From positions 1 through 32,500 of the forward strand of contig JACVTC010000105.1 of assembly GCA_016946835.1 (NCBI GenBank): DNA of 32,500 bases, in the 5' to 3' direction. Origin of the DNA: Neocallimastix lanati (nom. inval.) (taxonomy: Eukaryota; Neocallimastigomycota; Neocallimastigomycetes; Neocallimastigales; Neocallimastigaceae). A program made the position numbers and the translations under genes. Each line of letters starts with the position of its first letter. Position 1 is the first letter of the stretch. This document shows, one piece after another, positions 319 through 32,051 of the stretch. Below the pieces are notes generated by a model. That model had not been told where the DNA came from. It saw nothing but the letters and a program-made list of their open reading frames with translations, and searched no databases.

Positions 319-1683
319 TCAATAAATTTCCATTGGAGTTAATTCCTTTATAATTTCCTTTTCATTATTCGTTTCTTTAACTTTTCTAATAGTGCAAATT
401 ATACTTTCTTCATCATAATATTGATTATTTATTTTAGCTATTTCTTCGTATTCACTTTCTGACAAAAGTTTACATAAACTGTTTAAGGTCGGATGAATAA
501 ATAAACAATGATCGATTTGAGTTTTAAAGTTTATTAACATATCATAAAATGAGTCTTCTTTCTCAATAATTCTAAAGTCCGCATTAAATTCATAATTATT
601 AATTTTTACTGGTAATTGAACAATAATTCCTTCCGAGTATTCTTCATCTTGTGTTGCTAGTTGGATTCTTCCACGACTTTTTCCAACTGTTTCATATTCA
701 CCAGGTAATTTATCAAAATACTGCTTAGTAACGATGCTTAGGTTACTACAAGAATCAATTAAAAGTTTTCCTAGTACTCCGTCAACACTTGCATCAACCA
801 TTGCTAAGTCTTCTTCGGCTACTTCATTACTTTTACTTATGTAGCTATGATCATAGTTATTCACTAATAAAGTTCGTGCTATTACATTGTCTACAGTTCC
901 AATTATTTTAGATTTTTCTAACTTTAAACCTTGAGTTAATTGTGAACGAATTTTCGGACATGCATTCAAGAGTTGACCTATCGTAATACTGGATTTAAGA
1001 TTATTTAAATCATCCATAATATTGTAAGGTTCTTTATTATTCATCATTTTGATATTCCTTTTTACTAACTGAGTATTTTCATTATTAGTTTCTTTAGTTT
1101 TTGTTGAAATTAATTTTTCCAAAGTATTAGTTTTATTTTGTTGATTATCTTTATTCATTTCTATATCTTCTATTTCATTATCGATTACAAGTATATCTTC
1201 AGATTCAACTTTTTTCTTTCCTTTTGATGAATAATTGTTGTTTTCTTCTTTACTTTCTCTTACTCTTGTTATATTTCTTAATTCCTTTTCTTTTTGTTTT
1301 TCTTTGTTAATATTTGGTTGAGTTAAAATTGAAGGAAGTATTTGATTTTTATAAACTTTATTTGGTTTATTATGTAGCTCATTTTCTTTCTTCTTTCTTA
1401 AAGCAGGAGTTGCGAAAGGACGTGGATTATCTTTTAAACTTTTATGTACTTTCTTGGAATTATTTTCTTCCTTTTCGCTGTTATTATCATTCATTTTTCT
1501 TTTTATAGCATTTATAATGATATTATCCTCACTTTCAGTTGTGTCACTAAAATCAGATTCTTCAGATTCTTTATTAAAGGAATTATTATCAATTGGGGTA
1601 TTCTTGGTAAAAGTATTATTTTGTAAATTATTTAATGAAGCTATTGTTTTGTCATTGGGAGTGCTTCTGCTCCCATTTAGAAG
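319..1683 (-). CDS. Retrotransposon pol frame with aspartic protease domain, expressed by -1 frameshift from gag
   Basis: The frame is open for 454 codons from the gag-pol slippery site to a TGA at 319-321. The first Met is at 1494, but the 63 codons before it (starting LLNGSRSTPNDK) are also open and continuous with the frameshift site, so the protein most likely begins as a Gag-Pol fusion. The first half is low-complexity, rich in Lys, Asn and Glu. Next comes a segment like those preceding fungal Gypsy proteases (NIMDDLNNLKSSITIGQLLN). Then follows a retropepsin-like domain: GKLLIDSCSNLSIVTKQYFD, with the putative catalytic Asp encoded at 754-756. The usual DS/TG triad reads DSC here (TGT at 748-750 instead of GGN). 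The frame stops just before the RT linker. Family membership is clear from order and motifs; whether the protease is active is doubtful. Confidence 0.8.
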   Translation of the reverse strand, partial: LLNGSRSTPNDKTIASLNNLQNNTFTKNTPIDNNSFNKESEESDFSDTTESEDNIIINAIKRKMNDNNSEKEENNSKKVHKSLKDNPRPFATPALRKKKENELHNKPNKVYKNQILPSILTQPNINKEKQKEKELRNITRVRESKEENNNYSSKGKKKVESEDILVIDNEIEDIEMNKDNQQNKTNTLEKLISTKTKETNNENTQLVKRNIKMMNNKEPYNIMDDLNNLKSSITIGQLLNACPKIRSQLTQGLKLEKSKIIGTVDNVIARTLLVNNYDHSYISKSNEVAEEDLAMVDASVDGVLGKLLIDSCSNLSIVTKQYFDKLPGEYETVGKSRGRIQLATQDEEYSEGIIVQLPVKINNYEFNADFRIIEKEDSFYDMLINFKTQIDHCLFIHPTLNSLCKLLSESEYEEIAKINNQYYDEESIICTIRKVKETNNEKEIIKELTPMEIY

Positions 1684-1689
1684 TTTAAA
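1637..1689 (-). promoter_or_regulatory. -1 programmed ribosomal frameshift signal (slippery heptamer plus pseudoknot)
   Basis: On the minus strand gag ends tct-tta-aac-ttc-taa, which contains the heptamer T_TTA_AAC (1689-1683) exactly in gag phase. A 7-nt spacer TTCTAAA (1682-1676) includes the gag stop. Stem 1 is TGGGAG (1675-1670) with CTCCCA (1661-1656). Its loop holds GAAGC (1667-1663), complementary to GCTTC (1641-1637) downstream, giving stem 2. Loop 1 is CA, a single A (1662) sits between the stems, and loop 3 is 14 nt and A-rich. Slipping back one base enters the open pol frame at CTT CTA AAT. Heptamer, spacing and geometry all fit classic retroviral -1 sites. Confidence 0.85.
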
Positions 1690-2582
1690 GACTTTTTGGA
1701 ATATATTTCTTTTTTATTTTTTTCCATAATCTTATTTAATTGAGGGCAATAGTATGAGTAATGACCTTCTTCCTTACAGAAGAAGCAAGTTTTAACAGAT
1801 AAATTTCTCATTTTCTGGGTTGATTCTTCTATAATATCTTGAGGTTTCAGTTTATTATTTGTTTGACTTGTTTGGAAAGTTTCGTTTCTTCTTTTAGGAT
1901 AAAGTCTTGAAGTAGTACTGTTTTGATTATTTTGATTATGCTGGGAATTATTAACATTATAGGTATTAATATTATTGTTCCTTACAGAAAGTCTATCTAC
2001 TTTCTCGGCAATTTTGAAAGCTTTCTCCATACTTATATCATCTTTAAGGGATAATTTCTTCCAGGCTTCATAATTATTTTGAATAGAGTCAATATAATCT
2101 AGTACACCAATGCGCTTTCTTCTCTTTTTATCAAGTTTAGTGTACAAAGTTCTATATCTTACATTAAAGTCTTTAATCTTTTCGTTTCTTTTAATTCGCA
2201 TTGCACGAAGTTCTTTAAGAAGTAAATTTTGGTCTTCTTTAATACCGTAAAAATTTTCAAGACTTGAAATAATTTTTTCAAGAGAAGGAAATTTATCATC
2301 ATCAACATTTTCTTCTTCATCATCTTCTTCTTCATCTGATGAATCATCACTTTCATCATCACTATCTTCTCCCAAATCTTCAATAACGCGTTGTACTTCA
2401 CCAGAGCTGGTAAGTAAACAAGCATTAAATATTGTTTCCGGATCTGTGATACCTTGTATCTTGATCCAAAGTTTTAATTCAGTAGCCCAGGACTTTATAT
2501 CTAAATTGTCCTTGCTAAGCTTCACTATGTCTCGTAATTCTTTCTTTAATTCTTTAAAACTTAAAGTACTTTTAGTAGACAT
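1677..2582 (-). CDS. gag: Retrotransposon Gag (capsid-nucleocapsid) with CCHC zinc knuckle
   Basis: This 301-residue protein is the structural protein of the virus-like particle. Residues 1-67 include a WATELKLWIKI segment typical of the capsid N-terminal part. Residues about 68-96 are a run of Asp/Glu/Ser, an unusually acidic insert. A second capsid-like helical part follows (LKELRAMRIKRNEKIKDFN, then WKKLSL). An Asn/Gln-rich linker leads to the nucleic-acid-binding knuckle CFFCKEEGHYSYYC at 266-279, which fits C-x2-C-x4-H-x4-C. The tail is basic. The ATG at 2580-2582 is the first in frame after the leader. The last codons carry the slippery site that gives Gag-Pol, so free Gag and fusion should be made in a fixed ratio. 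The frame is intact, unlike the RT region. Distant members of the family differ greatly in Gag, so this call rests on the knuckle, the length and the position before protease and RT. Confidence 0.85.
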   Translation of the reverse strand: MSTKSTLSFKELKKELRDIVKLSKDNLDIKSWATELKLWIKIQGITDPETIFNACLLTSSGEVQRVIEDLGEDSDDESDDSSDEEEDDEEENVDDDKFPSLEKIISSLENFYGIKEDQNLLLKELRAMRIKRNEKIKDFNVRYRTLYTKLDKKRRKRIGVLDYIDSIQNNYEAWKKLSLKDDISMEKAFKIAEKVDRLSVRNNNINTYNVNNSQHNQNNQNSTTSRLYPKRRNETFQTSQTNNKLKPQDIIEESTQKMRNLSVKTCFFCKEEGHYSYYCPQLNKIMEKNKKEIYSKKSLNF

Positions 2583-3777: not shown

Positions 3778-4273
3778 ATTTGTTTTTTTAGAATCTTAAT
3801 TTTACTTATTTAAAAAAAAAATTTTTTTTATATATATATATCAAACAAGCGCCATGGGTTAATCAAAGGATTAACGACTTACTTGTTTATCAATATAAAA
3901 TAAAAAAAAATTAAAAAAAAATCTATGTTATTTACTATTATTTCTATTTAATACCCCGATATCTCCACCATATAAATGTTAAGGTTTTAGAGAATTAAAT
4001 AAAAATAAAGTAAGGAAACACAAATTTTATTTATTTATTTATTATTTTTATTTATAAATTTATTTGATTTTATTTGATGATATTTAAAAATTAGTAGCAA
4101 AATTTACAACTATTTATACTTTTTTTTAAGGCATAAAAGTTGTTCTTGCCACTAAATTACATTTTATTTATTTTTTTTTTTTTAAAAACTATTAAATTTA
4201 AATTGATTTTTATAATTAATTATATAAAATTTAATTATAACAATATAAATAAAATACATTTATAATATTAATA

Positions 4274-4315
<42 letters not shown>

Positions 4316-4811
4316 CTATCTAAAATATTACTAATAAGAATTTATTTAATTGGCTAAAATTTTTATTACAATCTGTTAAAATATTCAAATAAAAATAAAA
4401 ATACTATTCTAATATAAAGGTTTTTAATAAAATAAAATATTTTTCAATATAAAATAAAACATTTCGATATAAAATTTTATAATAAAAAGTTAAAATATAA
4501 TATATAAATTTTTAATTATCAATATATAAAAATATTATTAATATAAATTTTCATTATTAATATAAAAAAAATAAGATTTATTATTAATATTGCTAATATA
4601 AGTTTTAAATATATAAAAATATTACTATTAATATAAGATTTAATATAAAAATATAAAGTTTAATATAATTTTTGATTTAATTTTTGATCTTTGGATTTAA
4701 AAATTTATTAAAGTACAAAAATAATAATGTACACATAATGTATTAGAAATAAATCGTAGATTTAATTAAGAATGCATTATTTAGTACATTCTTATCAAAA
4801 AAATATAAATT
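3778..4811. other. AT-rich intergenic stretch with one nested inverted repeat and a T33 tract
   Basis: No coding frame is seen. AAACAAG (3843-3849) and CTTGTTT (3882-3888) enclose a perfect hairpin GTTAATC/GATTAAC (3858-3864 and 3869-3875, 4-nt loop). A run of 33 T occupies 4278-4310. The rest is simple A/T sequence. Part of it may belong to the LTR if that ends near 4019. Confidence 0.6.
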
Positions 4812-4884
4812 ATCCGAATAGTGTAGTGGTTATCACGTTTGCTTTACACGCAAAAGGTCTCCGGTTCGAACCCGGGTTCGGGTA
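4812..4884 (+). tRNA. tRNA-Val (anticodon UAC)
   Basis: This 73-nt tRNA has all arms visible. The acceptor pairs ATCCGAA with TTCGGGT (one T-G pair), with discriminator A at 4884. The D arm is GTG...CAC. The anticodon stem TTTGC/GCAAA encloses loop TTTACAC, with anticodon TAC at 4845-4847, which decodes GUA valine codons. The T arm TCCGG-TTCGAAC-CCGGG holds the B box. There is no intron and no encoded CCA, as is normal for a eukaryotic gene; CCA would be added after transcription. The internal A box (TAGTGTAGTGG) and B box (GGTTCGAACCC) serve RNA polymerase III. In a genome this AT-rich the gene stands out as a GC island. Confidence 0.97.
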
Positions 4885-4887
4885 AAG

Positions 4888-5999: not shown

Positions 6000-6520
6000 A
6001 ATAAATACTCTTTTTATTATTTATTATTTATTTTTTATTATTTATTAATAAATACTCTTTTTATTATTGATTATTTATTTATTTATTATTTATTATTTAT
6101 TATTTATTATTTATTATTTATTATTTATTAATAAATACTCTTTTTATTATTTATTATTTATTATTTATTAATAAATACTCTTTTTATTACTTATTATTTA
6201 TTATTTATTAATAAATACTCTTCTTATTATTTATTATTTATTATTTATTAATAAATACTCTTTTTATTATTTATTATTTATTATTTATTAATAAATACTC
6301 TTTTTATTACTTATTATTTATTATTTATTAATAAATACTCTTCTTATTATTTATTATTTATTATTTATTATTTATTAATAAATACTCTTCTTATTATTTA
6401 TTATTTATTAATAAATACTCTTCTTATTATTTATTATTTATTATTTGTTAATAAATACTCTTTTTATTATTTATTATTTATTATTTATTAATAAATACTC
6501 TTTTTATTATTTATTATTTA
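6000..6520. repeat. 40-bp AT minisatellite with 120-bp higher-order period
   Basis: The motif ATAAATACTC occurs 12 times, mostly 40 bp apart (6131, 6171, 6211, 6251, 6291, 6331 and on). Three unit variants (TTTTTATTAT, TTTTTATTAC, TTCTTATTAT after the motif) alternate, so 6121-6240 and 6241-6360 are identical 120-bp blocks. Each unit carries the palindrome TATTTATTAATAAATA. The same core recurs near 20,860 and 22,500. Confidence 0.9.
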
Positions 6521-6529
6521 ATTATTCCA

Positions 6530-7332
6530 TTATTTATCAGAAGAATTTAAAAAAAAATTTTTTTCTATAGTAGAATCTAAAATTAAAATTGGAGAAATTC
6601 AAATATTTTTTAAATTTTAATTTTAAATTTCATCATCATAAACTGCTTCAATATAAAATTATTTATTTATTTATTTATTCATCCATTTATTTATTTATTT
6701 AATTATCCATTTATTTATTCATCCATTTAATAGGAAAAAGAATTTTAAATTTTTAAATTTTTTAAATTTTTTTAATTTTTTTTTTTTTAGCAGATTTCTT
6801 TAATTAATTTTAATTTTTAAATTTTTAATTAATTAAATTTTTAATTTTTTTAAATTTTTAATTTTTAATTTTTTAATTAATTAATTTTAAATTTTTTAAT
6901 TTTTAATTTTTAATTTTTAATATTAAAATCGATTAAAACAGAAAATAAAAAAATAAAAAAAAAAATAAAAAAATAAAAATTTTTTTTTTAATAATTAAAA
7001 TTAAATCATTCATTCATAATCAAAATCAAATGAAAGAGATTTGAAATTAATGAAAAATTCTTTTATTTTATTTTATTTTATTATTTTTTATTTTATTATT
7101 TTTTATTTTATTATATTATATTTTATTATTATTTTATTATTTTTTATTATTATTTTATTTTATTTTATTTAATAAAAATAAATAATAAAATAAAGAAATT
7201 TAGGAAGAACAAAGGAATAGAAATCTTTTTATTATTATTTTTTTTAATTATTTCTTATTTTTATGAAATTTACTAAGCCACATTATTCAAAGTTTATAAT
7301 TAAATAATAAATAAATAAATAGTAAATAAATT
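6530..7332. other. Low-complexity AT stretch without a gene
   Basis: It is composed of ATTT/CATT simple repeats (about 6655-6735), AATTTTTAA-rich sequence (about 6750-6930) and TTTTATTA repeats (about 7060-7180). No reading frame or RNA gene was recognised. Confidence 0.6.
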
Positions 7333-24072: not shown

Positions 24073-25781
24073 ATGGCATTATCGACAAATAGAAAAATCA
24101 AAAATATAATAAATGAAAATAAAAAAAAAATAAAAATGACTTCATCACAAAATAATAAAATAAATAATTATATAAAAGAATTAAATATTCACTTTAAAAT
24201 TGAATTATTTATAAAAGATTTAGATAATGGAGATTTATTTAGAAATATTAAAAACTTCAATAAATAATAGCAATAAAGATAATTCAGAAAAAATTGATAT
24301 CCCGTTGGAGATTTATAAAAAATGGCTTTCTTAACTCCTAATAGATTAGATTTTATAATGAAAAATTGTAACGATATTTTATAGATATCTTCTTCTTTAC
24401 TAAAGATATTAATAAAAAAAAAATGAAATTCAGTTATTACGAATTATTTTTGATAACTCTAAATTTTATGATAATGATTTCATTAAACATTTACTTTATC
24501 AATATAAATATAAAAAGGTCAATTTTTGTCACTGACTTAAATGAAATAATATCAAATAATCAATAGGTAATCTCAATAAATCAGAATATAAAAAAAAATT
24601 TCAAAATTATTTTACAAGAGTATGCCATGAAGAAAAAGAAAATATCATTAAATTTTTAATTAGAAATGGAGCCAATGTAAATAATTCGAATAAAGATCGT
24701 AAAACACCATTAGGTTGTGTATGTGAAAAAGGAAAAGAAAAAAATAACAAAATTTTTTAATTGAACATGGTGCTAAAATAGAAAAAGCTTATTGGCCCAG
24801 TTATTTACCTTTATTTATGGCATACAAAGAGTGGAAATGAAAATCTAGTAAAATATTTAGTTGAAATTGGAGCTGACGTAAATAAAAGTATCAACTATGG
24901 GTGATACACCATTGTTTTTTTGCATGCAGAAGTAGAAATGAAAATCTAATAAAAAATATTTAATTGAACTGGGAGCAGATGTAGAAAAAAATTAAATAGC
25001 AATGGAGATACACCTTTATTCGATGAGTGCTACAGTGGAAACGAAAATCTTGTAAAATATTTAGTTAAAATAGGAATAGAATAGATGTAAAAAAAAAAGT
25101 TAAATAAAGTATGGTGAAACACCTTTATTTGATGCGTGCTACAGTGGAAACGAAAATCTAGTAAAATATTTAGTTGAAAATGGAGTAGATATTAATAAAA
25201 AAAATAGATGGGCTAAAACACCACTATTTATTGCATGTGAGAAAAGAAATGAAAAAATAATAAATTATTTAGTTGAACAAGGAGCAGATGTTAATGAAGG
25301 AAATAATTGGGCTGAAACACCTCTTCATAATGCATGTAATAATGAAAACGAAGATATGATAAAGTATTTAGTTGAAAATGGAGCGGATATTAATAAAAAA
25401 GATAGATGGGCTAAAGCACCACTACTTATTGCATGTAATAAAGAAAACGAAAATATAATAAAGTATTTAGTTGAAAAAGGAGCAGATATTAATACGGAAA
25501 ACGAAAAGACTGAAACACCTCTTCTTGTTGCATGTAGGAATGGAAACGAAAATATCATAAAGTATTTAGTTGAACATGGGGCAGATATATATAAAGTAAT
25601 TGATATACTTAATTGTCCTATAAAACGATATGTTCCACGTAGAGGATTAAGTAAAAAGAAAGGGTATATTAAAAAATTATTAGTTGAACTTAAAGATAAT
25701 ACTAATGACAATAAAAAATATAAGAGAAAACTAGTTACCTATAAAGATTTTAAAATCACTAAAAAAAACAAAAACAAATGA
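24073..25781 (+). pseudogene. Ankyrin-repeat gene, family 2, copy 2 (N-terminal half broken, C-terminal half open)
   Basis: The ATG at 24073 opens a 64-codon frame. It has a Lys/Asn-rich start and then the family domain FKIELFIKDLDNGDL, and ends early through what looks like a 4-bp TTTA duplication near 24237. The rest of the N-terminal domain and the first five or so ankyrin repeats are in changing frames. From 25104 to 25781 the frame is open: about four repeats of 33 residues (pattern TPLxxACxxxNExxIxYLVExGADIN), of which two form an internal 198-bp duplication. A basic tail follows, with NCPIKRYVPRRGLSKKKGYI, then LVELKD, KLVTYKDFKI and a Lys/Asn end. The first Met in that open part is at 25356, inside a repeat, so it is not a natural start. 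Without the breaks, the product would be an ankyrin scaffold of about 500 residues. Confidence 0.85.
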
Positions 25782-30595: not shown

Positions 30596-32051
30596 ATGGC
30601 TTCTTCAAAAAATAAAAATAATAGGAATAGTGATGTCAAAGAATCAAATAACAACTTTAAAATTGAATTGTTTATAAAGGATTTAGATAATGGAGATTTA
30701 GCAATATTTAAAACTTCAATAAATAATATCAATAAAGATAATTCAGAAAAAATTGATATTCCATTGGAGATCTATAAAAATGGCTTTCTTAACTCCTAAA
30801 AGATTAGATTTTATAATAAAAAAAATTGTAGTAATATTCTATATATATCTTCTTCATTACAAAAGACATTAATGAAAAATAATGAAATTCAGTTATTAAA
30901 TTTTTAATTTTGATAACTTTAGATTTTTTACGATAATGATCTCATTAAAACTTTACTTAATAAATATAAATATAAAAAGGTCAATTTCTGTCACTAACTT
31001 AAATAGAAAAATATCTATTGTTCATTATCAAATATTACTAACAAAACATTTTATAGAAAGTTTTCAGGATTATTTTATGGGCCTATACCAAGATGGAAAA
31101 AAAAAGTAAATATAATTAAATATTTCATTGAACATGGAGCTGATATAAATAAAAAAAAAAAAAAAAGTAGATCTGGGGATACACCATTAGGTTATTTAAT
31201 GTCGAAAAGGAAATGAAAAAAGTATTAAAATGTTTAATTGAACATGGAGCTGGTGTAAATAAAGCAAATGATAATAATGAAACAGCATTGCATTGTGCAT
31301 GTGAAAAAGGAAATAAAAATAGAGTAAAATATATTTAATTGAACATGATTGCCAATATAAAAAATAGTAGATATACACGGTGATTCTCCTTTATTGATGG
31401 CATGCGAAAAATAGAAATGAAAATATAGTAAAATGTTTAGTTGAAAATGGAGCGGATATTAATAAAAAAAAAATAGATGGGATAAAACACCCCTATGTAT
31501 TGCATGTGAGAAAAGAAATGAAAAAATAATAAAATATTTAGTTGAACAAGGAACGGATGTTAATAAAGGAAATAATAGGGCTGAAACACCTCTTCATGAT
31601 GCATGTAATAATGAAAACGAAGATTTAATAAAGTATTTAGTTGAACATGGAGCAGATATTAATAAAGAAAATATCAATAATGAAATACCGCTATTTATTG
31701 CATGTGAGAGAGGAATTGAAAAAATAATAAAATATTTAGTTGAACATGGAGCAGATATTAATAAAGAAAGTTAAGAGAATGAAACACCTCTTCTTGCTGT
31801 ATGTAGGAATGGAAACGAAAATATAATAAAGTATTTAGTTGAACATGGGGCAGATATATATAAAGTAATTGATATACTTAATTGTCCTATAAAACGATAT
31901 GTTCCACGTAGAAGATTAAGTAAAAAGAAAGGGTATATTAAAAAAATTATTAGTTGAACTTAAAGATAATATTAATGACAATAAAAAATATAAGAGAAAA
32001 CTAGTTACCTATAAAGATTTTAAAATCACTAAAAAAAACAAAAACAAATGA
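30596..32051 (+). pseudogene. Ankyrin-repeat gene, family 2, copy 3 (broken)
   Basis: The ATG at 30596 starts a 65-codon frame: a short Ser/Lys/Asn head, FKIELFIKDLDNGDLAIFKT, and INKDNSEKIDIPLEIYKNGF. The frame then stops at LNS because of one extra A in CTTAACTCC, a base also present in copy 2. About eight ankyrin repeats follow (near 31110 to 31870), several with indels. An in-frame TAA lies at AAAGTTAAGAG (near 31770), where copy 2 has an open codon. The C-terminal tail is about 98% identical to copy 2 but has one extra A near 31947 that breaks the LLVELKD segment. Nonsense change plus indels make a true pseudogene likely. The repeat number differs from copy 2 by at least one, consistent with unequal exchange inside the array. 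Confidence 0.85.

Follow-up and report, generated by a model that had tools for sequence, protein, structure and literature searches.

A predicted programmed −1 ribosomal frameshift signal of pseudoknot type between gag and pol of Ty3-order LTR retrotransposons in the gut fungus Neocallimastix lanati

The gag-pol junction of a Ty3-order LTR retrotransposon of Neocallimastix lanati is, with a probability of about 0.93 judged from comparison of sequences, a programmed −1 ribosomal frameshift signal. The junction was studied in a window, i.e. the whole analysed stretch of 32,500 nt, which lies at the start of a contig in the 199-Mb assembly. In four clades of related elements of this genome (A, C, D and E), the arms of the putative second stem are unrelated in sequence yet complementary. 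Stimulation by a hairpin alone, reinitiation and splicing are less likely and are considered below together with the evidence that bears on them.

All parts of the junction are located on the minus strand of the window. The slippery heptamer U_UUA_AAC (TTTAAAC, 1683..1689) stands in gag phase and is followed by the 7-nt spacer TTCTAAA (1676..1682) carrying the gag stop TAA at 1677-1679; the gag frame reads AGT TTA AAC TTC TAA. The first stem (S1) consists of the 5' arm TGGGAG (1670..1675) and the 3' arm CTCCCA (1656..1661), both assigned from the sequence and from S1 covariation. Between them lie loop 1 (L1, CA, 1668..1669), the 5' arm GAAGC of the second stem (S2, 1663..1667) and a single A at 1662 in the wedge position between the stems. 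The A-rich loop 3 (L3, 14 nt, 1642..1655) leads to the S2 3' arm GCTTC (1637..1641). The loops and the single A were placed by the junction alignment, and the S2 arms by the alignment, the S2 permutation test and pattern searches of the genome. The preliminary description of this DNA had drawn the junction (1689-1637, minus strand) correctly base for base, including heptamer, spacer, S1, L1, S2, the single A and L3. Thus, an in-phase X_XXY_YYZ heptamer is combined with a downstream −1 ORF, and the expected structure about 5-9 nt downstream of the heptamer is found as S1 after the 7-nt spacer.

In the proposed mechanism, the H-type pseudoknot would pause gag-translating ribosomes with tRNA-Leu on UUA and tRNA-Asn on AAC, and a minority of the ribosomes would slip back one base onto UUU and AAA. 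The slipped ribosomes would read on into pol, producing Gag-Pol at a presumed ratio to Gag. The unslipped ribosomes would add one residue (UUC) and stop at UAA. The slippage may depend on S2 to some degree. Alternatively, pol could be produced without slippage, by termination-reinitiation or internal initiation past the gag stop, and an AUG directly follows this stop in the window (UAA AUG). However, this AUG belongs to the gag frame rather than to the pol frame, and it is missing in several related junctions (e.g. L076, L104, L108). The first Met of the pol frame is codon 64, the heptamer is retained, and conservation extends to the pol-frame residues preceding the Met (G[SR]..[ST]P in the majority of junction rows), which makes initiation past the gag stop very improbable. 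The same observations are in line with the earlier suggestion that the first pol Met is not the real start. The −1 frame itself was confirmed by ORF reading in the window to be open for the 454 codons previously given.

The gag ORF (1677..2582, minus strand, from the first ATG) encodes 301 aa followed by a stop and contains one CCHC zinc knuckle (Pfam zf-CCHC, E 0.0047, below the curated cutoff). The pol ORF, entered at the slip site in the −1 frame, comprises 454 codons and a stop (319..1683, minus strand); a weak aspartyl protease match (E 0.12, below the cutoff) is the only pol domain seen in the window copy. The pol frame of the window ends at 319, whereas in the close relative L043 it runs on without a stop for at least 913 codons, as far as the fetched sequence reaches. 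Since the window begins at the contig start, the remainder of the element is absent there. The pol of the relative L042 contains protease (228-319, weak, below the curated cutoff), reverse transcriptase (RT, 488-648), RNase H (711-840) and an integrase zinc domain (915-967), and the Ty3/gypsy (Metaviridae-like) order of protease, RT, RNase H and integrase was established via this relative. In L043, a copy of the window type, RT (560-720) is followed by RNase H, and the fetched stretch ends before any integrase. An LTR of the TG...CA type lies upstream of gag (3977..4797, minus strand), its boundaries being inferred from where copies cease matching, and it is the upstream LTR only that falls within the window. 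The adjacent primer-binding-site-like sequence TGGTGGAGATATCGGGG, 6 nt inside the LTR (3954..3970, minus strand), was read directly from the sequence and would pair with a tRNA whose 5' end begins GGAGATA. The element is best read as a Ty3-order LTR retrotransposon of this anaerobic gut fungus.

The usual form of the retropepsin active site is D-S/T-G. Among the junction types of the present elements, a retropepsin-like D-S/T-C motif was found in 21 of the 23 types with a motif (clades A and B), and D-S/T-G was found in the clade C type L041 and the clade D type L040; 5 of 28 types gave no match. In the window, 13 bp separate the end of the upstream LTR from a tRNA-Val(TAC) gene (4811-4885). 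When 40 of 1,347 candidates were scored, the match extended into the tRNA for some 26 nt or more in 11 of the 39 other full-length copies, and 9 of these 11 stopped matching at the same base. The pattern looks as if the copies had been inserted beside tRNA genes with a similar 5' half, the alternative being duplication of one locus, and suggests Ty3-like targeting of tRNA genes. Of 30 loci scanned, one (L047, clade B) has a tRNA-Gly gene, which lies some 2.1 kb upstream of its heptamer. Elsewhere in the window, ankyrin-like repeat ORFs were recognised by eye from the translations at 25104-25781 and 31466-31774 (plus strand), and a long AT-rich tandem repeat rich in TTATTAATAAATACTCTTTTTATTAT was noticed in the sequence by eye at about 6000-6540.

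Related junctions were gathered either with the pattern TTTAAAC N7 TGGGAG, which fixes the S1 5' arm, or by gag/pol protein similarity, which is independent of the stems. For the latter, 44 short places were hand-picked from many matches for diversity and for reaching the junction. The 120 sources (119 loci and the window) resulted in 117 located junctions, 53 of them distinct; in the decayed partial matches L072, L073 and L074 no junction was located. L046 was dropped as a chance pattern match outside an element, with no gag frame and 1 of 6 S1 pairs. The remaining 52 distinct junctions gave 43 distinct 34-nt rows, of which 19 had been picked by the pattern with TGGGAG.

All the 44 chosen protein-located junctions carry the heptamer TTTAAA[ACT] and the same gapless layout of a 7-nt spacer, a 6-nt arm, an 8-nt loop and a 6-nt arm. 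The 25 distinct junctions among them have six S1 pairs in 16 cases, five in 8 and four in 1. Gag terminates at the first or second codon past the heptamer in 20 of the 23 distinct pattern-located junctions. The clades sharing this layout are distant from each other: the pol identity between the window type and clade B was 42% over the aligned region, the identity of the RT segment between clades A and C was 46%, and the gag identities over the aligned parts were 28% (A vs B) and 25% (A vs C).

In the 43 rows, 94.6% of the S1 cells were paired, compared to 39-66% when the 3' arm was slid by 1-3 columns. Ten cells had changed on both sides, and the covariation score was 0.196 against a shuffled mean of 0.102; neither value was reached in any of 500 shuffles. 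The two-sided change was confined to the first pair (UA 25, GC 4, AU 3, CG 3, UG 3, unpaired 5), and the fourth pair was GC in 30 rows, GU in 11 and other in 2. The number of S1 pairs with two-sided change and the number of pair types showed no excess over the shuffles (455 and 142 of 500, respectively). The first S1 pair occupies a third codon position and a first codon position of pol, therefore protein conservation would be a poor explanation for it.

The codons in which S1 is written are uncommon ones. GGG (8% of Gly codons) and CCC (11% of Pro codons) hold the stem in 7/7 clade A representatives, and the Gly codon GGG does so also in 16/16 clade B representatives; in the clade B rows L068 and L070, outside these 16, AGG replaces GGG. 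In the codon null the amino acids were kept fixed and the codons were drawn by the usage in 20 loci from outside clades C and E. Where all six S1 pairs are present, the p values for S1 were mostly 0.002-0.035, with 0.06-0.07 in L005, L039 and L049. With an imperfect S1 they were mostly higher, e.g. 0.13 in L116-L118 and 0.25 in L040.

In the case of S2, the paired sequences differ from clade to clade. Clade A, to which the window belongs, has GAAGC/GCUUC, which is extended to 6 bp if U is the last base of the loop. The pairing in clade C is GCAAU/AUUGC, with 6 bp in L091, 7 bp in L041 and one G-U pair in L100, and clade D has GAACGUU/AACGUUC. Clade E has UGUACU/AGUACA in L088 and only AGUG/CACU in L083-L087. 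Different but complementary loop and downstream arms, as expected for an H-type pseudoknot, are consequently found in A, C, D and L088, weakly in L083-L087, and in none of the 13 tested clade B junctions. When the loops and downstream stretches were permuted among single representatives of A, C, D, E1 and E2, the native combination ranked best of 120; clade B was omitted from this set because it has no clear S2. The p values by shuffling were 0.0055, 0.0015, 0.0035, 0.25 and 0.019 for A, C, D, E1 and E2, respectively. Under the codon null they were 0.06 for the window, 0.058 for L041, 0.006 for D, 0.17 for E1 and 0.002 for E2. The window S2 taken alone is thus borderline under the codon null and the 4-bp S2 of E1 is not significant by shuffle or by codons, so the case for S2 rests on the clades jointly more than on the window. 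The check put forward in the preliminary description, a search for covariation of S1 and S2 across related elements, was thus passed overall.

The signal is present in many copies across the genome, and reversed patterns in the same genome were used as controls. TTTAAAC+N7+TGGGAG was found in 646 copies (reversed control 1), and TTTAAAY+N8+GGGAG+NN+GAAGC+N+CTCCC, which combines heptamer, S1 and loop, in 712 copies (reversed control 0). Nearly every GGGAG+NN+GAAGC+N+CTCCC motif (712 of 720) has the heptamer at the exact spacing. GAAGC+N+CTCCC+N15+GCTTC, which includes the S2 partner, occurred 752 times (reversed control 0). Among the matches listed, the first 100 places for each pattern, 80 places with heptamer, S1 and loop fell inside the range listed for the GAAGC-to-GCTTC pattern; the partner GCTTC stood at the exact distance in 74 of these 80 and was absent in 6.

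Chance was estimated on the heptamers. TTTAAAC itself is not rare, with 14 occurrences in the window against 29.7 expected. Counting both strands, the window holds 3,610 X_XXY_YYZ heptamers. A perfect 6-bp S1 combined with an in-range 5-bp S2 was found at one of them, namely at this junction, and at none of 147,302 heptamers in 60 simulated second-order Markov windows. The plain nested hairpin fold of the junction did not reach significance (z −1.09, with 30 of 200 shuffles folding equally well). It contains S1 and lacks S2, which nested folding cannot represent. In Rfam no family was matched by window positions 1500-1800 at E up to 10.

Clade B comprises 20 distinct junctions, in which S1 is retained with tolerance of G-U pairs. 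Most rows read TGGGAG AAGGNNNA CT[TC]CC[AG] with CAAACC downstream. An S2 was sought in the downstream stretch, and in 13 of the 20 distinct junctions none was above chance (p ≥0.23); L002, L044, L045, L063, L068, L069 and L070 were left out of this test. The exceptions in the clade are complementarities of 6 bp in L044 (GGAATA/TATTCC), 5 bp in L045 and 4 bp in L071. Those of L044 and L045 gave codon-null p values of 0.017 and 0.023, respectively, and both junctions have an S1 mismatch and short pol frames. In some clade B relatives pol is open for at least 500 codons. The lack of an S2 above chance in the tested clade B junctions indicates that the full pseudoknot is not universal and is not needed in every relative. 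The earlier expectation that relatives keep heptamer and stem complementarity accordingly held for the heptamer and S1, and it failed for S2 in the clade B junctions tested.

The retention of S1 in clade B without an S2 above chance in the 13 junctions tested, and the borderline p value of 0.06 for the window S2, would both fit a genuine −1 frameshift stimulated by the S1 hairpin alone, with S2 being incidental. This is unlikely, as the S2 arms of clades A, C, D and E are complementary though unrelated in sequence, their native combination was the best of all the permutations tried, and the S2 partner is kept in most of the checkable places listed. In addition, the S2 arm of 7/7 clade A representatives uses AGC, which accounts for 6% of Ser codons.

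A frameshift signal with a pseudoknot may have taken a reduced form in clade B. The only constant S2 candidate in most rows is GG/CC, a contact which at +0.8 kcal/mol is unstable by itself. The codons holding this GG and CC are nearly fixed, with AGG in 15/16 (usage 13%) and ACC in 15/15 Thr codons (usage 14%), and the following Asn codon varies (AAT 6, AAC 5). Shared descent could explain part of the AGG/ACC fixation. A tentative and rather doubtful reading is that the clades form a series with a fixed 7-6-8-6 frame, in which S2 was repeatedly re-invented with unrelated sequence and in a shifted register, and in clade B shrank to the 2-bp GG:CC contact. If true, this contact would, to our knowledge, rank among the smallest frameshift pseudoknots. 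The S2 of the luteoviral frameshift pseudoknot is given as 3 bp (PMC3835772).

Relatives beyond this genome were compared as proteins, and the stem comparison covers one genome. A search of 5.8 billion proteins resulted in 62 gag relatives, of which 49 have the CCHC knuckle and 13 were set aside. In 44 of these 49 the protein terminates in LN or LNx at 19-27 residues past the knuckle, as expected if UUA AAC stands at the end of gag. Six gag relatives have source names: Piromyces sp. E2, Orpsp1 (two), Neocallimastix lanati (two) and Neocallimastix sp. 'constans'. Orpsp1 is presumably Orpinomyces. None of these six has the LN end; four have no recognised knuckle and two (P0027, P0054) end otherwise. 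No relatives were found in IMG/VR when it was scanned by protein and by pattern.

In the database gene models of two relatives, P0061 and P0052, gag looks to be connected to pol-frame residues with some parts left out, the kind of gap that predicted introns would produce. Such joins would be expected if gag and pol were connected by splicing, and the frame offset could also be an artefact of decayed copies: the −1 frame comprises at least 500 codons in 12 of the 23 distinct pattern-located junctions and is shorter in 11, mostly in broken copies. Both explanations are highly unlikely, since the offset does not differ between young, nearly identical copies and clades whose gags share 25-28% identity, and the fixed uncommon codons and covarying stems would be unexpected in decaying DNA. 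The two gene models may be annotation artefacts to which the frameshift gave rise. The gag copies are in line with the separate gag and pol frames of the preliminary description. The search with the C-terminal part of gag gave 1,857 candidates, of which 150 were scored, all with 99-100% identity. In none of the 150 scored copies did the gag frame run into pol, and the longest open frame was 350 aa.

The geometry of the predicted −1 signal is best read as close to that of betaretroviral gag-pro pseudoknots. According to Table 1 of PMC3835772, SRV-1 has a spacer of 7, S1 of 6, S2 of 6, L1 of 1, a linker of 0 and a long loop of 12, and MMTV has a spacer of 7, S1 of 5, S2 of 7, L1 of 1, a long loop of 8 and one A between the stems. 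The corresponding values of clade D, compared to SRV-1, are 7, 6, 7, 1, 0 and 11. The window has a spacer of 7, S1 of 6, S2 of 5, L1 of 2 and L3 of 14, with one base between the stems as in MMTV. The likeness to the gag-pro sites of SRV-1/MPMV and MMTV, as these are tabulated, thus lies in the 7-nt spacer, the S1 of 5-6 bp and the short L1, with an S2 of 6-7 bp there. It is a match of element lengths; the signal would work in the betaretroviral manner, and kinship is not claimed. The heptamer is UUUAAAC/U/A here, in contrast to GGGAAAC or AAAAAAC in betaretroviral gag-pro, and there is one gag-pol shift in the present Ty3-order element versus two shifts in betaretroviruses. A role of loop-stem triples in the SRV-1 pseudoknot is described in PMC5175198. 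Corona-, toro- and arteriviruses share the UUUAAAC heptamer and the downstream pseudoknot in the same Table 1 of PMC3835772; the S1 listed for them usually spans 10-14 bp and the spacer usually 3-6 nt, unlike here, and no relationship is claimed.

Frameshifting between gag and pol is itself well documented. In the survey of PMC5009743, pol was in the −1 frame in 28 of 51 animal LTR elements, many of them with a heptamer; the same source gives a pseudoknot at the PEG10 frameshift site and shifts in both directions for fungal LTR elements. Animal Ty3/gypsy elements and PEG10 have gag-pol in −1 as here, but in another host kingdom, and in the present work several clades of one genome were compared. 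Yeast Ty3 also recodes gag-pol in a fungus, but by a +1 shift at GCG_AGU_U, and its 3' stimulator is regarded as independent of pairing (PMC5009743). In Candida Tca2, as presented in PMC2194720, gag and pol are separated by a UGA stop, with a potential pseudoknot 3' of it. In the top-ranked results from the open-licence literature, no report of frameshifting in Neocallimastigomycota elements was found. Gag-pol recoding is said to have been treated by Gao et al. in 2003. The earlier emphasis on novelty was somewhat strong, as shifts to −1 are widespread among the LTR elements of animals and have been described in those of fungi, going by the account in PMC5009743. The mechanism is already known; the novelty lies in the group of hosts, in the covariation and in clade B.

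The comparative evidence, which goes beyond any single fold, points to retrovirus-like −1 pseudoknots being kept in LTR retrotransposons of an early-diverging gut fungus. Several hundred copies of the signal are found in one genome, and the gag C-termini of most knuckle-bearing database relatives fit the same signal. The clades provide ready-made variants of the signal, differing in the sequence and length of S2 and in the linker, with clade B nearly without S2, which may serve for questions about the minimal pseudoknot. The frameshift signal may also account for the odd gene models of such elements.
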